Origin: Apostichopus japonicus
Taxonomy: Eukaryota; Echinodermata; Holothuroidea; Aspidochirotida; Stichopodidae
DNA: 64,000 bases
Direction: 5' to 3'
Assembly (NCBI RefSeq): GCF_037975245.1
Contig: NC_092565.1
Coordinates: 3,627,999-3,691,998, forward strand
The notes below the pieces were generated by a model, which made no database searches, was not told the origin of the DNA, and saw nothing but the letters and a program-made list of their open reading frames with translations. A program made the translations under genes and the position numbers. Of the stretch, positions 11,335 to 48,903 are shown piece after piece. The first letter of the stretch is position 1; every line of letters begins with the position of its first letter.

Positions 11335-24926
<13,592 letters not shown>

Positions 24927-29317: not shown

Positions 29318-32300
29318 GTCAGGAAAAAAAAAATAATCCTGAGATGACTGATCGATTAATCTCTATAAATTTCCTTCCGTCTGCATTAATTAGTTGGCCA
29401 TTGATCAAGAATATGTTTAATATTCTCTTTCAATATCTTTGTCAATAAAATAAAGATTTGACTTTCTGAAATGTTTTGTTGACTTCATTCCCTCAAGTAC
29501 TATAGGTATTTTGACTAGGAAAGTTTCAGGTCGTATAAATAATGATATGTTGAAAAGTTTTCCACCTTTGGTTTTACATTAATTGATTTATTACTATGTT
29601 GAGAATGAAATCATGTTGATAAATTACTCGCTCAATATCATTCAGTCGATTGAAGAATCTAGGAGGCCATGTTTCTTCGACTTAATACAGTAACTTGAAG
29701 TCAACGGATATATCCAAATGTAAGAAACTTAATACTGGAAATGAAGCTTTGCATTAGTGCAAGTCTCCTGGAAACCTATAATGGTCAAATCATAAGATCT
29801 TTTATGCAGTGTTATATTTAATGCTCTCATATAATATGTGACATGTGAAAATGAGAATCACGATGCAATGAAATGTTGCAAGTCTGTAATGTCCTGATAC
29901 ATTTTGTTTTCTTCCTTAGATATGCGGTTGGTTTGCTGGCGTCTGGAGGAGAGAGGAAGCGTGGGAGAGACAATACTTCACCTATGCTTTCTCAATGCTT
30001 CTTTCATACATATCGAGCTGGCCAAAAGGTTGCTGAAAGCATACCCCTGTTTAGCGGAGGATATTTATGTCGGAGATCTGTATTACGGTGAATATTTTTA
30101 AAAGATAGTTTAAATGGGTACTTGAGTTTTTTAAGTGGAGGCTCATCACAGTTAAGTGTATCAATGTGCTCACCAATGTCGTAGCCACCATGGGGTGCCC
30201 TCCACCTTAAAATCATAATTTCTTCAAAATGGTTTACATTTAGTAGCACACAATACAAACTGAAAGCTTGTAAACAGAATGTAGTTCGAAAGTTGGAAAT
30301 GATATCAACATCTTCAATTTAATCCTCCCTTACCCAAAGAAAATATTCTCATTGGGGAGGGGTGTCCCTCCAGGAAACTTTAGACCCCTTCCTGGGAAGG
30401 ACATCATTTGTGCCAACCCCCCCCCTCCCTACCCGAACCCCAAATTTAAACTTTGGTTACAGGCGTGGTAGTCACTTCTCGTAGGTGTATTCATGACACA
30501 TCATATTGCTAAATCAACACATTTATGTGTTGTTTCAATTAGACACTGGCTGGTATGTACAGAATATTACAGCCAGAGCTCAGAGCAAAGACCAAGAGAG
30601 GCAACTTAGAAATTGTTTTTAAATTGAAATGTCTGTGGTAGAGCACCACAGACATTTTTCTGCCTTCACCAAGGCACCAAGGCAAATTTTAAAAATTTGT
30701 AAAGGCATCAAGGCATTTTTCCTGAAGTGAGAGAAGACTGGTCAGATGTTAATTTAACTTGAAATATTCTCGCAGAGTGGTTCGTTTGTTTCTTCTTCAC
30801 TGTCTCTAAAGTCTTTTTCTTTGAAATATATTTTGTTTATGTGATACTTTGATTTTCATAATATTTGCCAAACAGTCAGTGTACTTTTAATTCCAGGCTT
30901 GATGGAAATTAATTGGCACTTTTATTAATAGGTTATGCCATTGTATATGATTATGCACAATTTTTTAAAGAACAGCATTTTCTGTTTTGAAATTAATTGT
31001 CATAGCGATACCATTCATTCTGCTTCTGTCAGATTAAATTATTAAAATTTTGAAATTAACTTTTGGAAATTTATGTTATCCTTAAAAATCTACTGTGATA
31101 TAAAGATTTATAGGTTTTAGTTATGATGGGAGTATTGGGAAGTTGTTCACTTTGGCCACCAAAAGAAATCTCTTAAAATAGGTGATTGCACCAACCATAA
31201 ACCTTTCTCACCTTGCAAATAAACTCCCAAGCCCTAAAATAATTTGTTACTTTATTGCAGTATTTGTCAAAACATTGTTTAGCCTTAAGAAAGTCAGTCA
31301 AAGTTATACCACTTAACAATTGTTACTGTTCAAACAAGCCATGCAGAATTTTATGACATATGTATCATCTTTGGCTGCTTGAATCTCAAAATTTGTGCAG
31401 AAGTCTGTTGATGTTGCCACCGTTTGGTGAAGGGTAATTACTACAGTTTGGAATGTACCACTTGGACTGTTACACTTAAAACCTGACATTTAAGAGCAGT
31501 CTAATACTGACACTTTTCAACCAGGTGGATATGCGTGCTATATAAATCACCACTATTATTATTATTATCACCATTATTATTAATATAATTATGATTGTTA
31601 TATTATTATTATTATAATTATTGTTGTTGTTGTTATTATTATTATAATTATTGTTGTTGCTGTTGTTATTATTATTATTATGATCACCATTATTATTAAT
31701 ATAATTATGATTGTTATATTATTATTAATATGATTATTATTATTATTGTTGTTGCTGTTGTTATTATTATTATGATCTCTACTATTATCCCTTTTAGGTC
31801 ACAGTTTTGACAACTTATGACACCTTCTTATGCAACTTTCCAAAAGCTGATATTTCTATTAACTTCCATCTGTCAGCACTGCTGTACCAAATTGCACCTC
31901 TTTTTATTTTGTCAATTTTGAGCAGGAACAAATATTTCATTGCATTAATCTAACAAAAGGAATGTGCTAGTTACTTGAGTAACTTCTATAGGAAAGCAGA
32001 CTGTGAATATGAAATTATATATTATTAAACTGAAACAAACAACGGTGCTAAGTGGTAAACTTCCTTCTAATTTAATTTCAATACAGGAGAATCATGTCTC
32101 CACTTGGCAGTGGTGAATGAGAACATGGTCATGGTCAAGATGTTATTGAGGAACGGGGCAAACGTGAACCAAAGATGCTGCGGGAGTTACTTCATGACAG
32201 ATGACCAGCAGACCACACGGAGGGACACCATAGAACATGAGTGGTACAAGATAAGCAGCCGAACTAACTACGAAGGGTAGGTTAATTTAGAAATATAATT

Positions 32301-35300
32301 AAAAAATAGAGAAATTCTGAGGAGTACTTCATGACAGATGACCAACAGATCACACGGAGGGACACCATAGAACATGAGTGGTACAAGATAAGCAGCCGAA
32401 CTAACTACGAAGGGTAGGTTAATTTAGAAATATAATTAAAAAATAGAGAAATTCTGAGGAGTACTTCATGACAGATGACCAACAGATCACACGGAGGGAC
32501 ACCATAGAACATGAGTGGTACAAGATAAGCAGCCGAACTAACTATGAAGGGTAGGTTAATTTAGAAATATAATAAAAATAGAGAAATAATGAGGAGTACT
32601 TCATGACAGATGACCAACAGATCACACGGAGGGACACCATAGAACATGAGTGGTACAAGATAAGCAGCCGAACTAACTACGAAGGGTAGGTTAATTTAGA
32701 AATATAATAAAAAAATAGAGAAATTCTGAGGAGTTACTTCATGACAGATGATCAGCAGACCACACGGAGGGACACCATAGAATATGAGTGGTACAAGATA
32801 AGCAGCCGAACTAACTACGAAGGGTAGGTTAATTTAGAAATATATATAAATATAATATAAATATAATATAAATATAATATAAATATAATATAAATATAAA
32901 AAGTATATCAAGAAATTACTGTGAAGGACAATTCTGTTACTGAGGGAAGTTATTTATTGAATAATATGTAATATATACTCTCAAAATTAGAAATATGTGA
33001 ATGGGGGTGAAGAGGACGGTCTAAATCAGGGGTTCTAAGAAGGTGTGCAGGCCAAGTTTGGCCCACATAAGATTTCAGTATGTGCCTCCCCTCCCCCCCC
33101 CAAAAAAAAAATTTAAACATTCAATTAATCAGGTATGCTTGCCCTTAGTGTCCTAGGTTTGAGCACTATATACCAGCCTATCTTACACATTACTCAAACT
33201 AGGTCAAGACAGATTTTTGTTTTCCAGCCTACCTTACACATAACTCAATCTAGGTATAGTCAGGTTTCAGTACTCCAGCCTACCTTACACATTACTCAAT
33301 CTAGGTATAGTCAGGTTTTGGTTCTCCAGCCTACCTTACACATAACTCAATCTAGGTATAGTCAGGTTTCAGTACTCCAGCCTACCTTACACATTACTCA
33401 ATCTAGGTATAGTCATGTTTTGGTTCGTCAGCCTATCTTACACATTTCTCAATCTATGTATAGTCGGGTTTTCTTTCCAGCCTACCTTACACATTACTCA
33501 ATCTAGATATATAAATCAGGCGTTGGTTCTCACTGGCCCTTTGCTCCAGCCGATGTTTCTCTCTGGACCTCGTTGAAAATGAATGAAGTACCCCTGGCTT
33601 AAATGTTTCCCATTTTAAAATGGCCTAGTTGGCATGATGTATATGATCTTTTTAATTGTTGATTTTTTACAGGTTATGTTACTATGGGGAGTATCCATTA
33701 TCTTTTGCTGCCTGTTTGGGTAAACCGGAGATTGTACTCTACCTACACAGTAAAGGAGCCGACGTTAACCTGCAGGATACTAACGGCAACACAGCCTTAC
33801 ATATGACCGTCCTACATAACAATGAGGTAAACATGGTCAAAAAATTAAATCATAAATAATAACGGTGAAAAAAAATCAACTTTCTGCATTTGTATAATAA
33901 CTATTTGGAACCCTTTGACTCCAAGAGAATCTATCCAAAATATATACCTACTTTATGCTCTCAGCCATTCAATTTCCAGTAGTCTTAATTAAATATTATT
34001 GCATAAACGTTTGTTATTAAATATACCTCGTCGTCAGTAATGTTTTCCCATATTTCATATATAAGATCATATTGCTTTCATGGTTATGCGGTCTACCTGT
34101 GTACCATGACTGTTGTTACTGGACCAATCCAGCAAAATCTGCTTCAAATTTTATCTGTTCAAGAGTATGTATTTGATTAAATCAGTGATATAGGTATGTG
34201 TAGTATCCCAATGCAAAAATAAAACCCCCAAAAACAGACAACTGCAAAACAGAATTTACCCAAAGTTTTCCCTTTTGTTGTCATTATATGAAACAAAAAC
34301 CAACCTGCTTTAATTTGTGAAGAGATTTGTACTGTAAATTACCAAAGTCAATTTCCAAAGCAGCTATTCTCACTTGTGTTTGAACTGTAAATTCTCTCTC
34401 TTTACAGGAAATGTTTCTTCTCTTGTACGAGCTTGGAGCAGACACAAAGATTAAGAACAGGCAGGGGTACACGGTCCTCTCGTTGAGCGCCTCTCTCGGG
34501 AGAGCCGGATTGTTCCATCTGATCATCGGACTAGAGCGTCAGCTCTCTTGGAAGTTCACGACCACCACCTGTGCCCGTTACGAACTGCAGAATCTAGATA
34601 GCATTAATCCAGATGGAAGGCTTAATACTAAATCTGTCCTGTATGCCCTCTTGTCTAAGGTAGGGTAACATAAAATTTGTCCTGTATGCCCTCTTGTCTA
34701 AGGTAGGGTAACATAAAATTTGTCCTGTATGCCCTCTTGTCTAAGGTAGGGTAACATAACATTTGTCCTGTATGCCCTCTTGTCTAAGGTAGGATAACAT
34801 AAAATTTATCCTGTATGCCCTCTTGTCTAAGGTAGGATAACATAAAATTTGTCCTGTATGCCCTCTTGTCTAAGGTAGGGTAACATAACATTTGTCCTGT
34901 ATGCCCTCTTGTCTAAGGTAGGGTAACATAACATTTGTCCTGTATGCCCTCTTGTCTAAGGTAGGATAACATAAAATTTGTCCTGTATGCCCTCTTGTCT
35001 AAGGTAGGGTGACATAAAATTTGTCCTGTATGCCCTCTTGTCTAAGGTAGGGTAACATAAAAATTTGTCCTGTATTCCCTCTTGTCTAAGGTAGGGTAAC
35101 ATAACATTTGTCTTGTATGCCCTCTTGTCTAAGGTAGGGTGACATAAAATTTATCCTGTATGCCCTTTTGTCTAAGGTAGGGTGACATAACATTTGTCCT
35201 GTATGCCCTCTTGTCTAACGGAGGGTAACATAAAATTTGTCCTGTATGCCCTCTTGTCTAAGGTAGGGTAACATAAAATTTGTCCTGTATGCCCTCTTGT

Positions 35301-36875
35301 CTAAGGTAGGGTGACATAACATTTGTCCTGTATGCCCTCTTGTCTAACGTAGGGTAACATAAAATTTGTCCTGTATGCCCTCTTGTCTAAGGTAGGGTAA
35401 CATAAAATTTGTCTTGTTTGCCCTCTTGTCTAAGGTAGGGTGACATAAAATTTATCCTGTATGCCCTTTTGTCTAAGGTAGGGTGACATAACATTTGTCC
35501 TGTATGCCCTCTTGTCTAAGGTAGGGTGACATAAAATTTGTCCTGTATGCCCTCTTGTCTAAGGTAGGGTAACATGAAATTTGTCCTGTATGCCCTCTTG
35601 TCTAAGGTAGGGTAACATAAAATTTGTCTTGTTTGCCCTCTTGTCTAAGGTAGGGTGACATAAAATTTATCCTGTATGCCCTTTTGTCTAAGGTAGGGTG
35701 ACATAACATTTGTCCTGTATGCCCTCTTGTCTAACGTAGGGTAACATAAAATTTGTCCTGTATGCCCTCTTGTCTAAGGTAGGGTAACATAAAATTTGTC
35801 CTATATGCCCTCTTGTCTAAGGTAGGGTGACATAACATTTGTCCTGTATGCCCTCTTGTCTAAGGTAGGGTAACATAAAATTTGTCCTATATGCCCTCTT
35901 GTCTAAGGTAGGGTAACATAAAATTTGTCCTGTATGCCCTCTTGTCTAAGGTAGGGTGACATAAAATTTATCCTGTATGCCCTTTTGTCTAAGGTAGGGT
36001 AACATAAAATTTGTCCTGTATGCCCTCTTGTCTAAGGTAGGGTAACACAAAGTCTGTCTTATATGCCCTCTTGTATGCGAGGTAGCACAAAATCTTTACT
36101 GTATGCCCTCTTCTCTTAGGTATGGGTGGGTTAACATAAAGTCTCTCTCTGTTTGCCCTCTTGTATAAGGTATGATGGGTCAACACAACATCTGTTATGT
36201 TTGCCCTCTTGTATAAGGTATGATGGGTTAACACAAAATTTGTCCTGTATGCCCTCTTGTATAAGGTATGATGGGTTAACACCAAATCTGTTATGTTTGC
36301 CCTCTTGTACGGGTTAATGCAAAATCTCTCCCTGGTTGCCCTCTTGTATAAGGTATGTGGAAGGGGGTGGGGAGGGGGGGGGAGTTAACACAAAAGCTCT
36401 CCTTTTTTGCCCTCTTGTATAAGGTATGGTGAGGTAACACAAAATCTGTTATATGTACCCTCCTGTATAAGGGATGATGGGTTAACACAAAATCTGTTCT
36501 GTATGCCCTCTCGTATAAGTTCAGTTTACACTTGGAAACCATGATAAACATTAAGCTGGTTGTGATATGTATATAAACATTAGTTAGGCACCAAAAGTAT
36601 CAGGAAATTTTCAAGGTTTCAGCTTTTTTTTGTTATCTTTGTCAAAACTTGGACTAGACAAACTTGAACATCATTTGTTTATGGACTTGTAATGTCAAAT
36701 GAATCAAAACTTTTAACCCCAACTAACCCCAAACTGATATTCATATGGAATTCTAGTTCAGCATAAATCTCAAAGTGTCAAACTTAAACGTTACCAGATA
36801 ATCCCAGACATATTGGCATTGTATCATATTTTACCATTTGTTGCATTTCAAAGCTTAGACCTGGAATTGCTTGAG

Positions 36876-36934
<59 letters not shown>

Positions 36935-39900
36935 TTAGATAATTAAATTCAAATTCAAATCATTGCCTGTATTTCCCTTTTATGTTATTATTAGCATAAA
37001 CTTTGCAAGAGTCAAGTGCTTAGCATAAACTTTGCAAGAGTCAAGTGCTATTCAAGTGCATAAAAGTCAAGGCACTTGAAACATTTCCTTATTGTCATCC
37101 CATCTCTTCTCTCACAGAACCACTCCAACCAAGCAGATGTCGAGTTATCCCTCCACGGTCTCATCGAAGTCTTAATTCAGGAGAAATGGAAGTACTACGG
37201 TCGGTTTCGTTTCTACCGGATCCTAATTACCTTCCTCCTTCACATAATAACGTTAATGGTGGCTATCTATCTCAGGCCCGTGGAGGTAAAATGGCTGCAT
37301 ATACACTTTCCACTCCATTCATCAAGAAAACGACTTTTGATAGTTTGCCGTTGTTTTTTATCGCTGTCACTTTTAATTTTGCTTTGCAGTAGATAAGCTG
37401 TTTGCGAACAGTTCTTTCTCTCTTTGTGCTTTCAATTTAGCTTAGAATCGTTAAAAGTATTCTTACTGTTATGTGACAGTTCTGTGCTAGAGTTAATCCT
37501 GTACAATACAGGAAATCTAACTATAGATAAACAGCAGTCCAAGATACTCCTTTGTATGTATCTGCTCAACTCGTTGACATTTACAATTTACTTCGCTCTT
37601 CGCTTACCTGTCTCCTCACAACCTTAGCACCTTGTTCTACCATGACTATGAGGTCCTGGTAAAATAATAACACTTTAATAATACACACAATAATAACATG
37701 CAAATATAACCAAGACGAAATCCAAGGGAAGTTTTTTCACAAGAAAATCCGTGTGATGACACTTTGAATGGTAGAATGAGAAGGAAGGGCAGTGACCGGG
37801 GGGGGGTCCGGTCATAGAGGGCGCACAGTGTTATTATTTACTAGGACTAACATGGAAGATCTCTTCTTCGAAGACATCTACTATAGTATAGCATCAAATG
37901 TCTTCTAACCGAAAAGGCCCACCGTTTGTGAAGTATGTGAAGGCCTTGTCTACTTGAGCTGTGGCCTGTATTTTTTATGATATATTTGCAGAAAAAAGTA
38001 AAAACTTTGTGAATGGCAATACCTCCTCATAATGTGAATTAGGGTAACCTGACAGTTTGAAAGACATAATTTTAATACCATAAGGATTATAGGAAGGTTT
38101 ACCAGTGCTTTCAGTGGGATGGATGGATAATAAACACCAAAATAAAGTAAGTCCATCCACAACTGGTGACCTTAATCCACCTCAATTTCTGAGAGAAAAG
38201 CTGTGGAGATTTAATCTTTAGGGAAGTACCTTTTAATCTTATTGTACCAAATGTGGGAGAAAATATGGATGGAAAGTTAGTCTTGTGACAACTTCAAGAG
38301 CCTCTTTTACATATTAGCACTTTTTTTTGGGGGGGGGGGGGTAGTCATTCGACAGTAATTGTCAAATTATTCTAGAAAGATTTGGCAAAAACACAGGTGA
38401 TATCAGACTATCGTGTAGTCTCGTAATGGTAGTTATGGAAATAAAGGCAGTAATGTTGCTTTTAATGCAAAGAGGAATACAGAGATTTCTTTTTGTATGA
38501 ATAAAATTGTTCCAAATTTCAAGTGACTTGAAACAATTTAAGATCCTTGTTTTAGGTCCTTAGAGGACTTGGGAGTGAAGGAAAAATCGCGATTTTTCTT
38601 GCCTCAGTGTTAACCATTTAGAACCAATGCAATTTAACTATGTACTAACTGGTAATACAAAGTTTGCAAACAATATCACTTTGTTTGACAATTATTTGCA
38701 AAAGTTCTATAAAAAAACTAAGGCTGATTTAATTTGTTGACTATTGTAGGTGTGATGTGCAGCCTCCCTTGTTACATTAGTAATATTCACATACAAGCCT
38801 AAATGATGACTGAAATATCAACAAATTGTTTATATTGTTTAAAATGAAACTCAAACAGTTGTATTAGCAATCTACATTTCAACAGTATATTAACTAACAT
38901 CTAAATTTTCCCCTTGTTTGCAGCACAACTATTTTTGTTGAATTAGGGGGGCATAACATTCGTTCATTTGTTTTTAACTGTAGAGTGTGGTTTTGATTTG
39001 ACAATTCTAAATTCTTACAAGACACTAAAACCCCTGCAGTGAGATAACTCACTTTTCTGAATGTTGTATTCAAGGAAGAGAACATACTGCAACATAAGCA
39101 ATGGTTTTGGAAATATATTATGGTGTACACCACTCTGCCAAAAGTGCTCTCAGAAAACTACAATAAAACAGAACACTTTGTTGCTGGTAGTGTTTATTTG
39201 TAATATTAATATGTATATTGCTAAAGTACCATTTATATTGTAGAGTACTTAAACTGTACCTGTAAACAGCTGAATATCTCATTTGGTTGAGCACAGGGCT
39301 TGTTACCCCTGAGGTGCACTGGTTCAAATTCTTTTCCGGGCACAAAAATAAATGTCTTTGCTCCTTGTCTAGTTTGTTGATAACTATTCAGTCCGTGATT
39401 TGTTGTTTCGTTGACTTACCTGAAATGTTTCTTATCAGGATGAAACTGCTGCATCTGGTGTCTCCCTTGACAACCTGACCACATCAGAACCCTTCAACGG
39501 TACCCTGCATCGATTCCCTCACTGCTATCTATACTACAGAAACCGTCGAACTGATGTGGTAAGTTTTAACCATCTTCCTTAACAAAATATCGTTTGTAAT
39601 CGAAACCTTCTTTTATGTACTGTTATAGCTTCAAAATGCAATTTTAAGCATACCGTCATCATGTTAGGCTATGTAACCTTTTTGATATTGTAAGATCTAT
39701 GTTCATAATGGCATTATCGTTATCCAGAAATCATTCAGAAGGCTTTTTCCATTTTTTGTAGGTTCGCATCATCGTAGAATTCCTCTGTCTCGCACACGCC
39801 ATTGGACACTTGATTTCACTGGCTGTACATAGCAGTATTCTTGGTTTCAAGACATACGCATTACGCGCTGTAAGTAAATCAATTTATTTATTCATCACTC

Positions 39901-39976
39901 TCTGCCAACTGTACAGTCATGATGTGGGCATTACGTAATTATGAGTAACATCATACAATATACAATATGTGCTGAG

Positions 39977-40015
<39 letters not shown>

Positions 40016-43000
40016 AATGTTCTTAATCCAAGAACATGCCATCATTTTAATACTCGAGTGACTTTTGTAGCAAGTGGCACATGGCTGCTCAAAAGAAGGA
40101 CATGTTTATCTACGTAGAAAGGAACTTGTATTTCAAAAATTTATTCATTCACAGAAAGTTGCCCCAGCAAGAGAACTCTACTTGTTAGCCTGCTTATGTA
40201 TAATTACAGCGGGGGTGTGCCGTATACCCCCCTGCTTCCCCTTTCTTGAGGATGTTTGCCTGGTGATTGCCATCCTCCTGATGTGGCCGTACTGCTTCTT
40301 CTTTCTAAGGTGAGTATCGAATGAGATAACTTCATCAAAGGTTTTCTGACTGGCTTAATATTTTCATTGAATTTATTAATCAGTTTGTAGTATCATTCCT
40401 ATATTGTAACATTTTTAAAATTTAAATTTTTTTTTTTTTTTTTAAATAATGTCATTCCTGACTTCATCCCCTCACTCCCCCATCCCCACACCCTCCCTTT
40501 TACATACAAGTTCCATACTCTTCAGAATCTGTCATTATGCTGCAAGACTGATATCTCTGTGATACTAGAATAATTGAGATCCCTCTTTGTGTGTGTATTT
40601 GTTTGTGTGTGTATTTGTTTGTGTGTGTATTTGTTTGTGTGTGTATTTGTTTGTGTGTGTATTTGTTTCTGTGTGTATTTGTTTCTGTGTGTATTTGTGT
40701 CTGTGTGTATTTGTTTCTGTGTGTATTTGTGTCTGTGTGTATTTGTTTCTGTGTGTATTTGTTTCTGTGTGTATTTGTTTTTGTGTGTATTTGTTTCTGT
40801 GTGTATTTGTTTCTGTGTGTATTTGTTTCTGTGTGTATTTGTTTCTGTGTGTATTTGTTTCTGTGTGTATTTGTTTCTGTGTGTATTTGTTTCTGTGTGT
40901 ATTTGTTTCTGTGTGTATTTGTTTCTGTGTGTATTTGTTTCTGTGTGTATTTGTTTCTGTGTGTATTTGTTTCTGTGTGTATTTGTTTCTGTGTGTATTT
41001 GTTTCTGTGTGTATTTGTTTCTGTGTGTATTTGTTTCTGTGTGTATTTGTTTCTGTGTGTATTTGTTTCTGTGTGTATTTGTTTCTGTGTGTATTTGTTT
41101 CTGTGTGTATTTGTTTCTGTGTGTATTTGTTTCTGTGTGTATTTGTTTCTGTGTGTATTTGTTTCTGTGTGTATTTGTTTCTGTGTGTATTTGTTTCTGT
41201 GTGTATTTGTTTCTGTGTGTATTTGTTTCTGTGTGTATTTGTTTCTGTGTGTATTTGTTTCTGTGTGTATTTGTTTTTGTGTGTATTTGTTTCTGTGTGT
41301 ATTTGTTTCTGTGTGTATTTTGTTCTTGTGTGTCTCTGTTTTTATTCATTGGATAGCAGACTCCACTCCTCCCCCCTCCCCATCACCACCCTGTCCTGAC
41401 CCACACCTTTTGTTTTGATAATCTCGTTTAATCTTTCATTATGGTAGATACACAGGAAACCTCCATCTCTTTGTGGGCGAGATTTTTATTTTGTTAGTTG
41501 TGTATATATATGTGTTAGTTGTGTATATATTTGTTTGTTATGTATATTTGTGTTCGTTGTGTATATATGTGTTCGTTGTGTGTTTATGTGTTTGTAGTGT
41601 ATATATGTGTCTGTTGTGTATATGTGTGCATATATGTGTTTTTAGTATGTGTGTTCTGTTAGTTACTTGACCTTGCCATGTAGAGTCTTATCCATACGCT
41701 TCATTAATTTGCATTTAATATCATTTAACTAACATTGCCGGAGGACCCAATCAGAATACTCCTTGAGATCCCACATTGCATTGGTATCATTAGCTTGTGT
41801 TGTTTTGTCTCGTCGTTACGTTTAATGCCCAAAAGTCATCTCGACTCTCACGTTTGTCTGACCTCTTCAAATCCTTCTCGTTGTCTTCTCTCCTCCTACT
41901 TTCTTTCAGAGGTTTCACCAAATTTGGTAAATTTATAGCTATGATTTACAAGATGATGGCATCGGACCTGGTCATATTCTTTCTCATCTATGCGGTCGTC
42001 ATCATGGCGTTCTCTCAGGGTTCGTAGACAAACTTGCGTTCACGCCACCGAAACGTTCCTTTCTTTATTGATTTTTTCCCGTTTGATTTTGAAAAATATC
42101 AAATTTGATGATACTCTTCGCTTACTCCCGTGACACAATATCAGTCATCAGCTTGAGTTAGTCGAGTCTCATTTCAAATAATTAGACAACAGTAGAATTT
42201 TGGAATTTTTTCCAAATTTCATATATACTTTTGGATTAACACTAACATATGGAAAAGCTTCTAAGGTGTGCAAATAATACATTAAACCATGACATGTATT
42301 TTGTGCGACAAATGATTTTCTGTATTAGATGGAATTGCTGGCGATATGCTAAATTATACTACCGCCTAATTGATTGTTGTAAACGTGTAGATATCCGAGT
42401 AGATTTAGGGGTATCAGATTACTTATAATGCATAATTACATGGCCTCGATCGGTTGCAACCCAACTCAAAATATGCAGCTTTAGCTATTTCCCAGTGTGT
42501 GGGTGGATTCATAAAAGTTTTAAGTATTTATATAATTAAAGTCAGTGGTGAATCTCGTGTTCAAGAACAGACCCAGACACAACTAAGACAGACCTTGAGT
42601 GAATCATTCTGCTTTTGTAAAGTGCAACTTATTATATAAATATGGCTATATAATCATTCAATTATATAATAATATTATATATTATAATGTACTTTTCAAA
42701 CGTCAAGTGAGTCAAGCAAAGTTTTGTCAATTAACAGGTAAATGTGACATTGCAAGATGTCATTGACCCAAGTGACTGAAAATCACTGTTATTAATGACC
42801 TAATCCAGATATTACTAGTTAAGTGACTCGTTAGTTGAAGGCTTGTTTTTAGTGATCAGAGTGTACATCCCACACCCATTAAGTAACTACTGCAAACTTC
42901 ACTCTCATCATATTCAAAATTAGTACTTCTGGTTTGGGAATTGAGAAGTGGAGTTCTGTTTTTATTTTTTTTTAATGTTTTTGACACAAATTTACATTCA

Positions 43001-46000
43001 CCATAGCTGTACTGCATATTTGGTGTGTAGGAGTACCACATTGAGTACAACAAGTATATTGTTTTTGGTGGAGGTCAATGGTCATTTGGGGTCACCAGTG
43101 GTCAAATTGTGAAAACCTTGTAAACATGATATCTCAATATTGGAAGCTTGTGCAGATCTCATATTTGGTATAAAGGTGTAAAGCATATAAATAAAAGAAG
43201 CCTATTGATTTTGGTGGAGGTCAGAGGTCATTTGAAGTCAACAAATGTGAAACATTTACATCACTCCTCTCTTACCTGTCTCTCTACACTAATGCACCTG
43301 CCTAAACATAATATCGCAAGGGAAGCTTGGACAGATCGCATATTTGGTATGTAATTGTACCACATTGAGTACAGGAAGCCTAATGTTGTGGGCGGAGGTC
43401 AATGGTCGTATGAGTTCACCAGGGGTCAAATTATGAAAACCATGCTTATTTTCAAAATATTTCAGCAAGGACAGATGTCATATTTAGTATGTTGATGTAT
43501 CTATCACATTTAGTACAAGAATCCTGTTGTTGAGGCCAATGGTCATTTCAGGACAGCCTGTGTCATTGCGAATTTATTGTTTGTTACATCACACTGCTTT
43601 TCACTGTATTACTAAGATCAAGTATGTGTACACCCTCACTATACATTACTTCAGATTCATAAAGAAAATTGCGCATTAATACATCATCGAAGCCACAATG
43701 CATTTTTGCATTTCCACCCCCCCCCCCCCTTTTAATCACTGCGTTATACTTACCAGGGAGTTGCTAGAAGGAGAAACAATTCCAGTCATTTGTACTATGG
43801 ACATACATCCACTTTTGATAATAATCTTATGATATATTTTCTGCAATCATTTAATTCTTTGCTTTTGTTTTGGATCAGCAAAGTGATGCAGAATCATATA
43901 TGGAAGTGGCTTTTAAGTCCAAATGTCTGCATTGATGTAATATTGACAATCATCATGATGAAATTGCAACATTTGTTGAATTTTTTTACTCAAATATGAG
44001 TAAATAAGATCCATGCATTGAAGTAAATCATACAAATTTTCAAAAGTACACAGGTGTGTGTTTATACTCTTGCTAAGATAATAGAGTAATGCATATATGG
44101 GGGTAGGTGGAGGGGGAGGGGAGAAATGATTTGGTAGTTATTATGCGGTAGTTTGCTCAAAAAAATTCATGGTAATCCTACACCTCTGTACTATGCTGCT
44201 GTCTGTTATGAAATTATTTTAATTGGAACATTTTGTTTCGGGACAGGATAAGGATGGTGATTGAGCTAGAGAAAAGTCCTGTCCATGAACAGATTTGGCA
44301 TGAAAAAGATCCAGGTTCATGTTCAAAGTATCCACTATTAACCTTAAATATATTAGAAGCAAATGAAATCCTTCTCTAACAACTCTCTGAATCTCAGGAA
44401 TGGTTAATTCACCTGCTATGGAATGGTTTGTTCTAAATAAATAAATAAATAAAGTGGATGTATTTTATTGATACATGTATTGAATTTTTTTAAACATTTT
44501 ATTTCTGCAAGCTGCTTAACAAGGTAGGATATATTTTGAGGAAAAGAAAGCAGTAGTTGGGATTGAACCAGGGATCTTCTGCTTCCAAAACTTTTTCTCT
44601 ACCACTAGACCATTAGGTGGGAGATAGCTTTTGCTTGCTTTTCAAATATTTAAAGATCCAGTTGTTCAGTGGACTTAGTGTTTTTATAAAACATTTTCTC
44701 CACTGATCCATGTCAGGGAGAGGGAACCTTGTCAGGGGGGAGGGGTGCCGGCGATCTCCCCTGTCCGCTTGGGAACCTTGTCAGGGGGGAGGGGTGCCGG
44801 CGAACTCCCTTGTCAGCAAAGTCCTTTTGCCAGCGATTACTCACCCTGGACTTGAACCGAGTCGATCAGAAATTTCCAATCGCATACGGAACTACCAATT
44901 ACACCATTTTGGTTCCCAAGGAATCAACTTCGTTTCTTACCTTTATACTTCCACCTGCTTCAAAGAACAGAAAAGTAAAAGGCTCTGGCTGGACTTGAAC
45001 CATGGACATGCATCCTGTGGGAATTGAACCCCTACACAAGGAGTTTGTCTTGCTCTTCAGGTACAAGCACTAACCACTGCGCCACTTTATCTGTTGAGAA
45101 ATGATGCTCGTTTCTAATATTTAAGGTTCATAATGGAAGAAAAGAGGTATAAGAATAGAAAAAGCAAACTGCCCTCACTGGGGTTTGAACCCAGAGACAT
45201 AGAATCTTTAGGTACAGGCACTGACCACTGCACCACTGTAACTGTTGAGAAATAATGCTCGTTTCTAATATTTAAGGTTCATAATGGAAGAAAAGAGGTA
45301 TAAGAATAGAAAAAGCAAACTGCCCTCACTGGGGTTTGAACTCAGAGACATAGAATCTTTAGGTATGGGCACTGACCACTGCACCACTGTAACTGTTGAG
45401 AAATAATGCTCGTTTCTAATATTTAAGGTTCATAATGGAAGAAAAGAGGTATAAGAATAGAAAAAGCAAACTGCCCTCACTGGGGTTTGAACTCAGAGAC
45501 ATAGAATCTTTAGGTATGGGCACTGACCACTGCACCACTGTAACTGTTGAGAAATAATGCTCGTTTCTAATATTTGAACCTAACAATGTAAGGAGACTAA
45601 AAAAAAAATATAAAAAGCCAGTTGGCTTTGTGCTTCCTCGCCATATACTTTGCTCAAAATTTCACAAGTGAGCTTATAAGTGAGGCAAGGGAAAAGGTTT
45701 TGAAACTCTGAATACAATTTGTGAGGAGATGAGGAAAGACTTCATCTCACCAAGAGTTTCTCACAAACATGTCAACATAATATCTCACGAAGGCAAGCTT
45801 GGACCAATCTCATATTTAGTATGTAGTTGTAACACCTTGAGTTCAAAAACTCTTATTGTTTTGGTGGAGATCATAGGTCATTTGGGGTCACCAGTGGTCA
45901 AATTGTGAAAACCTTGTTAAAAACGATAACGCAAGAAAGTAGCTTGGACCAATCTTATATTTGGTATGTAGTTGTAACACGTTGTGTTCAAGAACCCTTA

Positions 46001-48903
46001 TTGTTTTTGGTGGAGATCATACGTCATTTGGGGTCACCAGTAGTCAAATTGTGAAAACCTTGTTAACATGATACACAAGAAGGTAAGTTTGGAGCAATAT
46101 CATATTTAGTATACAGTTCTGACACATTGAGTTCAAGAATTCTGTTGTTTTGGAATTTGGTGGAGGTCATTTGGAGTCACCAGGGGTCGATCAAATTGTG
46201 GAAATCTTGTTATACTTGGCATGTGCATGAATCATTATGAGAAGAAGTTTATTGTTTAAAGTGGAGGTTAAAGGTCATCTGAGGTCACCAGATGTCAAAC
46301 ACTGAAAACATTGTAAATACTATATCTCAAGTTAGGAAGCATGGAGATTTAACTTGAGATATAGTGTTTACAAGTGGCATGCGGATGCGTTATATTGAAT
46401 AGAAAAATTCAATTGCTTTTGGTAGAGGTCAAAGGTCATCTGGGTCACCAGCAGTCAAACTCTGGAGACCATTTAAACATGATACCGTATCTCATGGTAG
46501 AAATCAGGACATTTATATTATAATAGCTGTTTTTGGTGAATAAGCAGAAGTCTAATTGCAATGAAGTAATCAAATCTTCAAAGCAGTTTTGCATTCTGGT
46601 TACCCTTTGGAAATGCTAAACTAAACCAAGCAACTTTGCACACCTATCACCTTTGCGGCCGAGAGTTCATTCTTCTCGATTCACCTAAGATTGTTTTCTT
46701 TTTCAGCTATGCACGTTATTTACATTGGATTCCAAGGGGAGTCTGTGATGTATGGTGGTTCCATTATCAGCATGTTTGTGATGTCCCTCGGAGAACTAGA
46801 GGATATTTATGAATCCTTCGATCTGACCAGATATCCAACTGCAGCCAAGGTAAGCTAGCTACTGATTGTTAATAGCATATCTGTAAAATATGGAGTGAGC
46901 CAGCTACTAAATATGGATTAAATTACAAATAAAATATGTCCTTTAAAGTATGTTAACAAGGTAAAATTCAATAAGAAAAATTGATCCATTGGATTTTTCA
47001 ACTGTGAATACCTTCTTTTGAGCAAAATTATGTATATATGCTGATTTTAGATCCAAGAGGTTCAGGAGAATGGTTCCATGCCTGGTCCCTCCCAGGTAAA
47101 TAGATAAATAGATGTGCAACGAGTGAACCATTTGAACCCCCTTTTTTAGTTCTTGTAAAAGAAACCACCACACTCAAACATTTGATAAGGAGGGAAAGGT
47201 CACCGTCATACGATTGAACCCAACTGCCATGATGACGTAGTGTAGTTTTGTGCTTTCTCTGTGGGTGTTCCTATCTTTAAATTGCTGTCTCTGTGGCTGT
47301 CTTTCTCATCTTTGCAGGCATGTTTCTGGTTCTTCATGGTGAATGCAGGACTGCTGCAGTTGAATCTGTTTATTGCGATGATGGGCAATACGTTCAACTC
47401 GTTAGATAGCAAAAAGTACGAAGCCTTCAAACAGGTCAGATATTTAAATTTGAATTGTTTTTTTTATATATAATTATGAAGTATTCTCCTTGTATAGTTA
47501 CTGCACATATCTGTTATAGTTTTACATACATAGCCAGTCGCTACAATTTCACAAGTTTAGCCATTGCTGAAAATGTCTACTTGCAAAAGTGAATTTTTCA
47601 CTGGCCTTTTACTGAATTACAAACATGCATCTGTTGCTGTAAAGGCATATTCTGACTGATTATCAACCACTTATGATGTGTTAATGTAAGCGATGTCTAC
47701 TGGCCAGAGATTGCCTATGCCTGTTTCATCTACCGGCAATAGGGCTAACGAAAATTCACTGGCACTGAGCCAGTAAATAGCCCAAATTTCAAGGCCTGAT
47801 AGCCTAATGCGACCAATCATATTTGAAGGCAGGGGATGGAGGGGGGGGGGGAGGTGGAGCCTATAGGTTAAAGTCAAGTGGGATGAGGGATGGGGTTGGT
47901 ATGATGCATGGGCAATGACACAAGCATGACATTCCCTTGCACAATGCATTTCTCTATTCATGATGTTGTGCGTACGATATATAACACACATGAGACGTTC
48001 ATTTGTGCGTCTAGGGCCGCCCTGTTAACCGCGTATCCAGTCCAGTTTTGTTTGGTTTAATGAGCTGTCTGTTCCTCTAGCTAGCTTTTGTTTATGATTC
48101 CTTGCAGTGGGCTCAAATCATTTTGGTTTTGGAACAAGATCACACTAACTCTCAACGTAAGAAGATCATGCTGGGATATTCAACGCCTGGATGGACTGGA
48201 CCAAACAGCAGAGCAATATCGCTACAAACACAGAATGATGTAAGTTAGCTAAATAATGGAATTTATGGTCACGATTCGGTGGTTCCACACGGTCGTAAAA
48301 TGTCATGCCACACTGCAGCAATAGTTCTGTGTGATGTCACAAAAATCTGTTCTTGTTTAAAAACACATTCTAATGAAGCTGTTCCTGACTGGCATTTAAG
48401 TTTCATACACTGTTAAACATTCATTATGATGTCACAAGCTTCATTTAAATTTATTGAGATGTCACAATCAATCACAAGAATATTTGGACCTGTTTTTCCT
48501 TCAAAAGAAGACGTAACTTATTCTAGGCTGCACTCTAGTCAAGAAGAAGAAGGGAAAAAAATTATGTTCTTTGAGGTCTGCCTTTTTGCCAAAATTTGTG
48601 CCAAATTGCACCAAATGTGTGGCCTTGTTAAAAAAAAAAATAAAAAATGGAATTTTCATGTGATAAATACAAAGACTCTTTAATATGATGATGAATTTTT
48701 GTCATAATTTACAGGATTACGACGACTTAGCAATACAAGTATCAAACAGAAGGCATGCGAGGTACAAGAACATGGTTTTTGTGGACGGCTCCTGGCAGGA
48801 ACCCAAAGCAACTAGTGCTAAAGACGTCAGCATGAATGTACCGAATAGGAGCTGCACTTCAATGTCTGGAACTATTGCATCTGACTATGGTCTGCTATTG
48901 TAA
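28975..48903 (+). CDS. TRPV cation channel, Nanchung-like (complete, 14 coding exons)
   Basis: Fourteen exons with GT..AG introns and agreeing phases give 782 residues. Residues 125-360 hold about five ankyrin repeats ([56 protein letters not shown]), with the long finger loop [19 protein letters not shown] typical of invertebrate Nanchung/OCR-type TRPV. Six membrane segments follow from about 398. The S1-S2 loop has two N-glycosylation sequons. The S4-S5 region, [20 protein letters not shown], ends in FSQAM, a family hallmark. The pore filter is SLGEL (616-620) and S6 is [16 protein letters not shown]. The protein should form a tetrameric, Ca2+-permeable plasma-membrane channel. In insects and nematodes relatives act with a second TRPV subunit in mechanosensation, hearing or chemosensation; that role here is inference. 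The start is the first ATG after a splice acceptor. The stop overlaps a good donor sequence (TT|GTAAGT), so a longer tail is possible. Confidence 0.93.
29920..30087 (+). CDS. TRPV exon 2
   Basis: Residues 115-170: the first ankyrin repeat ([26 protein letters not shown]) and the [10 protein letters not shown] turn. The acceptor is TTTTCTTCCTTAG and the donor G|GTGAAT, phase 1. Confidence 0.9.
30900..31790. repeat. AT-rich intron with ATT/GTT microsatellites
   Basis: TRPV intron 2. From 31548 to 31785 it holds interrupted ATT, GTT and AATATAATT tracts, partly duplicated (TCACCATTATTATTAATATA appears twice). The rest is unique AT-rich sequence. Confidence 0.8.
32087..32276 (+). CDS. TRPV exon 3
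   Basis: Residues 171-233: ankyrin repeat 2 ([20 protein letters not shown]) and the finger loop after CCGSYF. The donor is GG|GTAGGT. The last ~90 bases plus the donor are the first unit of a five-copy tandem array running to about 32845. Confidence 0.9.
32188..32845 (+). repeat. 137-bp tandem array copying exon 3 end and its splice donor
   Basis: Five units at roughly 137-base spacing (135-138). The first is the true 3' part of TRPV exon 3. Each later unit repeats about 90 exon bases (from TACTTCATGACAGATGA to the donor GAAGG|GTAGGT) plus about 45 intron bases. Units 2-4 lack one T in GAGTTACTTC and share CAACAGATCAC; unit 5 keeps the T and CAGCAGACC. No unit has a proper 3' splice site. 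Splicing at a later donor would read straight into TAG after the first exon end. Confidence 0.9.
32840..32900. repeat. ATAAATATA microsatellite
   Basis: Short AT repeat with an 11-base unit (ATAAATATAAT), immediately after the 137-bp array. Confidence 0.9.
33165..33515 (+). repeat. 51-bp tandem array in TRPV intron 3
   Basis: About seven units of 51 bases. Each reads CCAG, then CCTACCTTACACATTACTCA, then ATCTAG|GTATAGTCAGGTTT. Since 51 is divisible by three, the array is open in one frame. Each unit contains an acceptor-like TTTCAGTACTCCAG and a donor-like TAG|GTATAG flanking 26 bases. No known protein resemblance. Confidence 0.9.
33673..33826 (+). CDS. TRPV exon 4
   Basis: Residues 234-285: ankyrin repeats 3 and 4 ([14 protein letters not shown].., ..[15 protein letters not shown]). 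The acceptor is TTGATTTTTTACAG and the donor GAG|GTAAAC. Confidence 0.92.
34408..34659 (+). CDS. TRPV exon 5
   Basis: Residues 286-369: the end of repeat 4, repeat 5 ([20 protein letters not shown]) and the start of the pre-S1 linker with SVLYALLSK. The donor AAG|GTAGGG and the last 22 exon bases are repeated about 33 times downstream. Confidence 0.92.
34637..36530 (+). repeat. 43-bp minisatellite copying exon 5 end and its splice donor
   Basis: It starts within TRPV exon 5 and repeats a 43-base unit, CCTGTATGCCCTCTTGTCTA then AG|GTAGGGTAACATAAAATTTGT, about 33 times to about 36060. More diverged units (TATAAGGTATGATGGGTTAAC) continue to about 36530. Most units keep AAG|GTAGGG, a usable 5' splice site. 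The intron part contains in-frame stops (GTA GGG TAA), so only use of the first donor gives the full channel. Confidence 0.93.
36880..36935. repeat. TA microsatellite
   Basis: Pure TA run in TRPV intron 5, followed by a local duplication of TTAGCATAAACTTTGCAAGA (36990-37045). Confidence 0.95.
37118..37285 (+). CDS. TRPV exon 6 (S1)
   Basis: Residues 370-425: the pre-S1 helix ([20 protein letters not shown]) and membrane segment S1 ([18 protein letters not shown]). The acceptor is TCTTCTCTCACAG and the donor GAG|GTAAAA. Confidence 0.92.
37286..39268. other. TRPV intron 6, no other gene seen
   Basis: Mostly unique AT-rich sequence with poly-G tracts near 37798 and 38330. I see no exon in it; the flanking exons join in phase without one. 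Confidence 0.6.
39269..39341 (+). repeat. tRNA-like sequence, plus strand
   Basis: GCTGAATATCTCATTTGGTT followed by GAGCACAGGGC resembles a tRNA D-arm with box A. GGTGCACTGGTTCAAATTC is a box B/T-arm about 45 bases later. The acceptor ends do not pair convincingly. Probably a SINE head or tRNA pseudogene in TRPV intron 6. Confidence 0.45.
39439..39558 (+). CDS. TRPV exon 7 (S1-S2 loop)
   Basis: Residues 426-465: the extracellular loop with sequons NLT and NGT and the conserved [12 protein letters not shown]. The acceptor is TTTCTTATCAG and the donor GTG|GTAAGT. Confidence 0.88.
39762..39869 (+). CDS. TRPV exon 8 (S2)
   Basis: Residues 466-501: membrane segment S2 ([20 protein letters not shown]) and the short cytosolic turn. 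The donor is GCT|GTAAGT. Confidence 0.9.
39980..40012. repeat. TA microsatellite
   Basis: Short TA run in TRPV intron 8. Confidence 0.9.
40155..40309 (+). CDS. TRPV exon 9 (S3-S4)
   Basis: Residues 502-553: S3 ([17 protein letters not shown]) and S4 ([19 protein letters not shown]). The donor is AG|GTGAGT, phase 2. Confidence 0.92.
40582..41335 (+). repeat. 16-bp minisatellite, about 46 copies
   Basis: The unit TTTCTGTGTGTATTTG is repeated almost perfectly for about 750 bases in TRPV intron 9. The first units carry TTTG instead of TTTC. The plus strand is entirely G/T-rich with few C and A. Cys/Val/Phe open frames on plus and Thr/His/Asn/Lys frames on minus span the array and are artefacts. 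Confidence 0.97.
41486..41660 (+). repeat. Degenerate TGTGTATATATGTGTT repeats
   Basis: Imperfect units of GTTGTGTATATATGTGTTC in the same intron, upstream of TRPV exon 10. Confidence 0.85.
41910..42019 (+). CDS. TRPV exon 10 (S4-S5 linker, S5)
   Basis: Residues 553-590: [16 protein letters not shown] linker and S5 ending AFSQ. The donor is G|GTTCGT, a weak non-consensus site. It is required because the next exon continues FSQ|AM in phase. Confidence 0.9.
43060..43600 (+). repeat. Degenerate satellite of about 130-bp units, block 1
   Basis: Repeated, diverged units containing GGTGGAGGTCAATGGTCATT, GGGGTCACCAGTGGTCAAAT, TGTGAAAACCTTG and a CATATTTGGTATG..ACCACATTGAGTAC block. About four units lie in TRPV intron 10. 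The same family returns at 45760-46500. Confidence 0.85.
44400..44554. other. Intronic spacer with AAAT microsatellite
   Basis: Contains a short TAAA run near 44437 and unique sequence leading into the tRNA-like cluster. Confidence 0.5.
44555..44623 (-). repeat. tRNA-like sequence 1 of cluster
   Basis: On the minus strand: TCCCACCTAATGGTCTAGTG, then GTAGAG and, at the end, CCCTGGTTCAATCCCA. Box A (TGGTCTAGTGG) and box B (GGTTCAATCC) are close to consensus and the 69-base length fits a tRNA. The anticodon arm is A-rich and does not form a proper stem, so it is a tRNA pseudogene or SINE head. Confidence 0.6.
44710..44815 (+). repeat. Short direct duplication
   Basis: GGGAACCTTGTCAGGGGGGA followed by GGGGTGCCGGCGA occurs twice, about 55 bases apart, in TRPV intron 10. 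Confidence 0.85.
44841..44920 (-). repeat. tRNA-like sequence 2 of cluster
   Basis: Minus strand begins CCTTGGGAACCAAAATGGTG, with box A TGGTGTAATTGGTAG and box B GGTTCAAGTCC at the expected spacing. The outer ends pair weakly. Confidence 0.55.
44985..45092 (-). repeat. tRNA-like sequence 3 of cluster, with a second T-arm
   Basis: Minus strand: TAAAGTGGCGCAGTGGTTAG with box A GTGGCGCAGTGG, a possible anticodon stem (CTTG..CAAG), an arm ACAAACTCCTTGTGT that looks like a long class II variable arm, and box B GGGGTTCAATTCCC. Beyond it another T-arm, ATGGTTCAAGTCCAG, remains from an adjoining copy. It most resembles a Leu/Ser-type tRNA. Confidence 0.6.
45092..45580 (-). repeat. 151-bp tandem repeat carrying tRNA-like sequences 4-6
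   Basis: Three units, 151 bases apart. Each holds a minus-strand tRNA-like segment (45170-45241, 45321-45392, 45472-45543): AGTGGTGCAGTGGTCAGTGC, a loop with AAAGATTCTATGTCTC, and box B GGGTTCAAACCCC. Each is followed by a constant 80-base spacer (AATGCTCGTTTCTAATATTT..AAGAGGTATAAGAATAG). Only the first unit keeps the fully paired T-arm; the other two have an ACTCAG change. Confidence 0.75.
45760..46500 (+). repeat. Degenerate satellite of about 130-bp units, block 2
   Basis: Same family as 43060-43600: GGTGGAGATCATAGGTCATT, GGGGTCACCAGTGGTCAAAT, GTGAAAACCTTGTTAA and CTCATATTTAGTATGTAGTT recur about five times. The tRNA-like cluster sits between the two blocks. Confidence 0.85.
46707..46849 (+). 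CDS. TRPV exon 11 (pore)
   Basis: Residues 590-637: extracellular turret, pore helix (SIISMFVM) and selectivity filter SLGEL, then the outer loop before S6. The acceptor is TTGTTTTCTTTTTCAG. Confidence 0.9.
47318..47434 (+). CDS. TRPV exon 12 (S6)
   Basis: Residues 638-676: S6 ([20 protein letters not shown]) and the MMGNTFNSL gate, then a TRP-box-like start of the C-terminus. The donor is CAG|GTCAGA. Confidence 0.92.
48108..48239 (+). CDS. TRPV exon 13
   Basis: Residues 677-720: [11 protein letters not shown], equivalent to the TRP helix with its conserved Trp, then a polar tail. The donor is GAT|GTAAGT. Confidence 0.88.
48715..48903 (+). CDS. TRPV exon 14 with stop
   Basis: Residues 721-782: hydrophilic tail ending SDYGLLL and a TAA stop. 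The stop codon sits in TT|GTAAGT, which could also serve as a splice donor. Confidence 0.75.
   Translation, partial: DYDDLAIQVSNRRHARYKNMVFVDGSWQEPKATSAKDVSMNVPNRSCTSMSGTIASDYGLLL

Follow-up and report, generated by a model that had tools for sequence, protein, structure and literature searches.

The window, a 64,000-nucleotide stretch of Apostichopus japonicus DNA on contig C5, contains a + strand TRPV gene whose intron 5 opens with a tandem array in which the end of exon 5 and its 5' splice site are repeated many times over. The locus raises the question of how an exon end becomes a minisatellite and how a gene whose intron is filled with copies of its own donor continues to encode an intact protein.

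Host gene and consequences of decoy use

The host gene was reconstructed from its splice sites and from comparison with proteins of solved structure. Six exons joined between 28975 and 37285 gave an open frame of 425 amino acids, whose best match among solved structures was Nanchung (E 5.8e-98), with the alignment running straight through the exon 5/6 junction. Four downstream exons, when joined, also matched Nanchung (E 4.5e-23). Exon 5 (34408-34659, 252 bp) was delimited by its acceptor and donor and by the alignment across that junction, and exon 6 (37118-37285) by its acceptor and the Nanchung alignment; intron 5 (34660-37117) is placed from the first donor, all three being on the + strand. 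Pfam searches of single exons detected Ion_trans in exon 11 at 21.6 bits, below the cut-off of 25, and the other TRPV exons searched singly gave no match except one at chance level. No S1-S2 exon was identified by eye within 37286-40154. A more distant TRPV paralogue of the Nanchung/Inactive type is present at G000:C20:30231195-30232808 (in L036), and no exon-end array was found at the exons located in it. A 99-bp array of 6.7 copies, with no known exon attached, lies about 5 kb from this paralogue. TRPV relatives were also sought in viral contigs, where none was confirmed.

Exon 5 closes in phase 0 at 34659 and reading through its end gives GTA GGG TAA, as the original prediction had it. The first donor is the only one in the array that preserves the frame. 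Any use of a decoy is predicted to give a protein consisting of the first five exons (369 residues, derived from exon lengths) followed by V and G and then a stop, which agrees with the truncation that had been proposed. Where this truncation would fall relative to the membrane part of the channel was judged from the TRPV family. Since the first donor is the sole choice that leaves the frame open, we infer that it is the one used, and the earlier claim that it has to stay in use is thereby supported.

Structure of the exon-5 array

TRF reported the array at 34630-36268 with a period of 43, 37.8 copies and 90% matches, and splitting on the shared core gave 43 units in all. In the proximal array (34632-36051, + strand) there are 33 units, almost identical and 43 bp long apart from one of 44 bp; the first of them is the real exon end. 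The distal array (36052-36531, + strand; the end is approximate and was set by a hand cut of the last unit) comprises 10 diverged units of 39-71 bp, most often 48 bp (5 of 10). Each 43-bp unit consists of 28 exon bases and 15 intron bases and so spans the exon-intron boundary. Unit 1 departs from the proximal consensus at a single base, 34634 (unit position 3), which is C in the exon and T in every one of the 32 intronic proximal copies.

Donor forms in the 33 proximal units, the real one included, were AAG/GTAGGG (27 units; the slash marks the splice point), AAG/GTAGGA (3), AAC/GTAGGG (2) and AACGGAGGG (1), so that AAG/GTAGGR is present in 30 of the 33. The donor is damaged in 3 of the 32 intronic copies, leaving about 29 good decoys downstream of the true donor. 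Eighteen unit types occur among the 33 units and the differences between them are orderly. The distal units are more diverged in sequence, have the donor form AAG/GTATGA and have an intron part unlike the proximal one (GTATGATGGG...); an AG/GTATG site is kept at the aligned place in six of the ten and is absent there in four.

Both TRF and the splitting into units bear out the original proposal that an exon end together with its 5' splice site is repeated in tandem, and the composition of the units supports its origin from the exon end. The details were less exact. The exon end is repeated over 28 bases, with the one differing base at 34634, and not over 22; the decoys are near-identical as described, and the "about 33" donors are better counted as about 30 proximal plus 6 distal; the array does extend to approximately 36531 (36530 had been given), its last quarter being an older, diverged stretch.

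Origin and age of the array

A whole-genome DNA search (671,581,487 bases, 35 contigs) with a 141-base query from the array found 19 places, all inside the exon-5 array itself. The search skips very common words and other copies are thus not strictly excluded; it provides strong but not absolute evidence that the array is of local origin and not a dispersed repeat. Unit position 3 is C in the exon and in 6 of the 10 distal units, and the T shared by all 32 intronic proximal units indicates that the recent wave of copies descends from one intronic copy. An exact repeat of 158 bases at a lag of five units indicates that several units were duplicated at once. The exon side of the array is homogeneous (1 of 43 bases differing), the inner block is near-identical and the distal edge is diverged.

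We propose that the exon 5/intron 5 boundary itself was the source of the minisatellite. The last 28 exon bases and the first 15 intron bases would have been duplicated in tandem and then multiplied by slippage or unequal crossing-over, probably in an older wave of units of about 48 bp, which have since decayed, followed by a recent wave of 43-bp units derived from the intronic copy carrying T. The intronic copies would be neutral, in keeping with the failure to detect selection on them (see below), and would be tolerated if splicing takes the donor nearest to the exon 5 acceptor, all decoys lying downstream of it in the intron.

Donor strength and tests for selection

The real donor scored 4.97, the same as most of the copies, with an assumed scoring matrix. 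Donor strength therefore cannot explain the choice of donor, and position, exon length or signals in the exon presumably must decide it. Variable columns among the 32 intronic proximal units were fewer, but far from significantly so, in the donor core (4 of 19) than elsewhere (9 of 24; P = 0.32). No conserved core was detected in the 10 distal units (168 of 190 core cells matched vs. 237 of 290 in the rest; max-window P = 0.47). An apparent conservation of the distal donor core (P < 0.0002; 0 of 5000 column shuffles) was an artefact of alignment forced at the unit edges and vanished when the units were aligned one by one to the consensus. At the level of sequence, these comparisons do not point to conservation of the decoys or to selection on them, in an array whose apparent youth gives such tests little power. 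A hairpin that would hide each donor scored z -2.52 in an isolated unit and -1.22 in a distal unit and only -0.34 and -1.72 in context, where it is not supported.

A second exon-end array in the TRPV gene

The exon-5 array is not the only one in this gene, although the original prediction named no other and did not link the array to a published type of repeat. Exon 3 (32087-32276, + strand; placed from its acceptor and donor and the Nanchung alignment) ends within an array of five units spaced 135-138 bp (32183-32854, + strand, end approximate). Unit 1 has 94 exon bases and the complete units have 42-44 intron bases; copies 2-4 have each lost the same single base of exon-derived sequence, a loss that breaks the frame. 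Among the TRPV boundaries tested for further copies in the window (+ strand), 2 of 10 donors and 0 of 10 acceptors had them.

The 25 arrays counted in the window were a merged choice from 60 TRF rows, with short-unit runs and overlapping rows omitted. Two of these 25 overlap an exon boundary vs. 1.38 expected by random placement (P = 0.41; circular shift, 0.40). Two arrays have a donor inside the first unit vs. 0.16 expected (P = 0.01), a count that was chosen after seeing the data.

Other repeats were observed in the window. A 16-bp array of 47 copies with 97% matches (40586-41341) has long open frames on both strands, and a GTACTCG-rich 129-bp tandem repeat of three copies (23168-23556) was linked to no exon found. 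Open frames at 42945-43354 and 45684-46523 share related, partly tandem (145 bp) stretches and apparently belong to a dispersed repeat. Rfam and ARAGORN gave no matches in the window, and 14 longer open frames elsewhere in it had no Pfam match above the cut-off.

Exon-end arrays elsewhere in the genome

The survey outside TRPV covered 84 exon loci: 66 of 134 kinase matches, taken as the best 30 (L037-L066, which include near-identical intronless copies) and then 36 picked from the rest (L067-L102), and 18 of 150 tyrosine phosphatase matches (L105-L122). Both samples are non-random. Loci L028-L031 are the exon-3 array itself, and short repeats overlapping an exon edge at L065 (10 bp, three copies), L074 (10 bp, 1.9 copies) and L109 (11 bp, 2.2 copies) were left uncounted. 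Many of the 150 phosphatase domain matches crowd on G000:C2 and G000:C16, suggesting large local expansions of that family.

Exon-end arrays were found at three kinase loci, one with 31-bp units (16 copies) and two, in paralogues, with 70-bp units (12 and 11 copies). The 31-bp array (L053 1854-2354; G000:C23, C23:17719552; 15.9 copies by TRF) follows the exon end CCCT/GTAAGT, and GTAAGT is present in 15 of the 17 sites listed, the real one included. In a relative of this locus, L054, the exon end is similar and the boundary carries no array. The 70-bp arrays, with AG/GTGAG, belong to paralogous kinase genes 3.3 Mb apart on G000:C11 (L075 with L103, and L076 with L104; C11:6327096 and C11:9613216). 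Each has 11 donors, and TRF counts 12.0 copies in the first and 11.0 in the second, a difference of a single unit. Downstream in L103/L075 lies another array, of 41-bp units in at least about 17 copies, which runs to the end of that stretch. We take these kinases to be MLCK-like and CDK-like, the latter being the pair on C11. In all three kinase arrays, a stop is met on reading past the first donor.

Homogenisation within the two CDK-like arrays was considered and rejected, units being not clearly closer within an array (mean distances 0.054 and 0.037) than between arrays (0.049). Exchange between array and exon tail was not significant (4 of 60 differing bases vs. 2 of 140, P = 0.07).

All five arrays, two in TRPV and three in kinase genes, sit on donors. 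Edges were counted where a family match broke off inside the domain by more than 8 model positions; exon-end arrays were present at 3 of the 63 edges on the donor side and at none of the 65 on the acceptor side (Fisher P = 0.12). Since the search began from TRPV and two of the arrays are paralogous, a donor bias is only suggestive and is best treated as a lead. A genome-wide count of three AGGTRAGT motifs spaced 49-79 gave 995 matches vs. 704 for the reversed pattern; these matches cluster in arrays and are non-independent, and we draw nothing from the difference.

Comparison with known repeats

The name mirage was given to tandem repeats over exon-intron boundaries in amphioxus Adh3, and further cases are reported from the amphioxus globins BflGb6 and BflGb9, TnC and PGBD5; those of the globins occur at both kinds of boundary, and splicing is reported to be normal (PMC3087553, PMC3902484). 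As in those accounts, the unit of the exon-5 array lies across the boundary and AG/GT signals occur in many units. By its DNA, the exon-5 array thus appears to match the anatomy of a mirage. The inner units of BflGb6 are homogenised and the cluster edges diverged (PMC3087553, PMC3902484); the exon-5 array resembles this in part, with a near-identical inner block and a diverged distal edge but an exon edge that is not diverged. There are differences. Two BflGb6 haplotypes have 6 and 3 units (PMC3087553), in contrast to 33 + 10 in the exon-5 array. Amphioxus mirages occur at both boundaries, but all five sea cucumber arrays are at donors, and the cases described in those accounts come from cephalochordates, whereas A. 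japonicus is an echinoderm. No mirage outside lancelets was recognisable by title or abstract among the open-licence papers listed by searches that had no query pairing mirages with echinoderms. The exon-5 array is a clear case of a known kind of repeat, very probably in a new animal group.

A minisatellite with multiple splice donor sites in the human gene IFI6 (6-16) was reportedly described by Turri et al. in 1995. As in TRPV, an exon-end repeat supplies several donors; in IFI6, two downstream units are reportedly used and three mRNA species result (PMC4526556), whereas use of decoys in TRPV would truncate the protein. Intron gain by tandem duplication of AGGT-containing segments likewise multiplies splice-site sequence (PMC3087553, PMC4974935), but the array copies lie inside an existing intron and no new intron was seen. 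Internal tandem repeats in human paralogues resemble the array as exon-end minisatellites able to change gene structure; they differ in having on average about four units of 30 bp, in lying in segmental duplications and in the alternative transcripts reported for them (PMC2812944).

Alternative explanations

The original prediction had offered three functions for the array, namely control of splicing efficiency, a landing array for U1 snRNP and neutral slippage; the last fits best, donor conservation being not significant. A regulatory role, in which U1 snRNP binds to the extra donors and splicing is thereby tuned or transcripts are retained, while a degree of decoy use gives truncated TRPV or a degraded transcript, seems to us improbable but worth keeping in mind. 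The supply of about 29 good decoys after the true donor speaks for it, as do the stop at GTA GGG TAA on reading past that donor, the use of two downstream repeat donors in human IFI6 (PMC4526556) and the hairpin over the donor in one isolated unit (z -2.52). Yet conservation at the donor positions does not significantly exceed that of the remainder of the unit and the hairpin is unsupported in context (z -0.34, -1.72), while the four additional arrays, with different units and in the same and other genes, fit a general mutational process. A U1 landing array and length-dependent control of splicing are as such neither supported nor excluded.

A recursive splice site combines a strong 3' splice site, in which CAG or TAG follows a pyrimidine tract, with an adjoining 5' splice site. 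The units end in pyrimidine-rich sequence followed by AAG/GT and might in principle form a ladder by which intron 5 is removed stepwise, an account we consider hardly credible. Pyrimidine content before the AG of the array was 0.75-0.81 in the four units scored, inside the span of 0.56-0.94 given by ten real acceptors; for 242 AGGT sites of the window it averaged 0.54. The copied exon, however, explains these pyrimidines; the copies end in AAG and not in the CAG or TAG of a recursive site, whereas the real acceptors end in CAG (9 of 10) or TAG (1 of 10), and the apparent conservation of the core in the old units was lost under better alignment. An inflated repeat number or a wrong order of units is similarly hard to credit. 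Tandem arrays are error-prone and an aberrantly assembled mirage is reported from an older draft genome (PMC3087553), but the differences between units are orderly, with 18 types among the 33, and the same anatomy recurs in five arrays. Misassembly is further made unlikely by read length if the assembly is the HiFi assembly of PMC10344927, in which reads averaged 14.7 kb, far longer than the 1.9 kb of the array. The origin that we consider probable is that of a neutral minisatellite derived from the exon end and tolerated through use of the donor nearest to the acceptor.

Implications for exon ends and splicing

A broader reading, which we regard as possible and put forward tentatively, is that in this echinoderm lineage exon ends repeatedly become minisatellites and that a splicing rule filters those that survive. 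Downstream copies of a donor would do no harm, the donor that comes first after the acceptor being the one chosen, whereas copies of an acceptor upstream would be used and hence purged. If this filter is true, the arrays, which occur in at least four genes and line up between 5 and about 30 near-identical donors, could serve as natural experiments on donor choice by position alone; each places many copies of one donor in a single transcript, so that position could be separated from donor strength. Five mirage-like arrays from one gene and 84 loci suggest that annotation has overlooked something more widespread in animal genomes, and such exon-end arrays may keep supplying new exon ends and introns.
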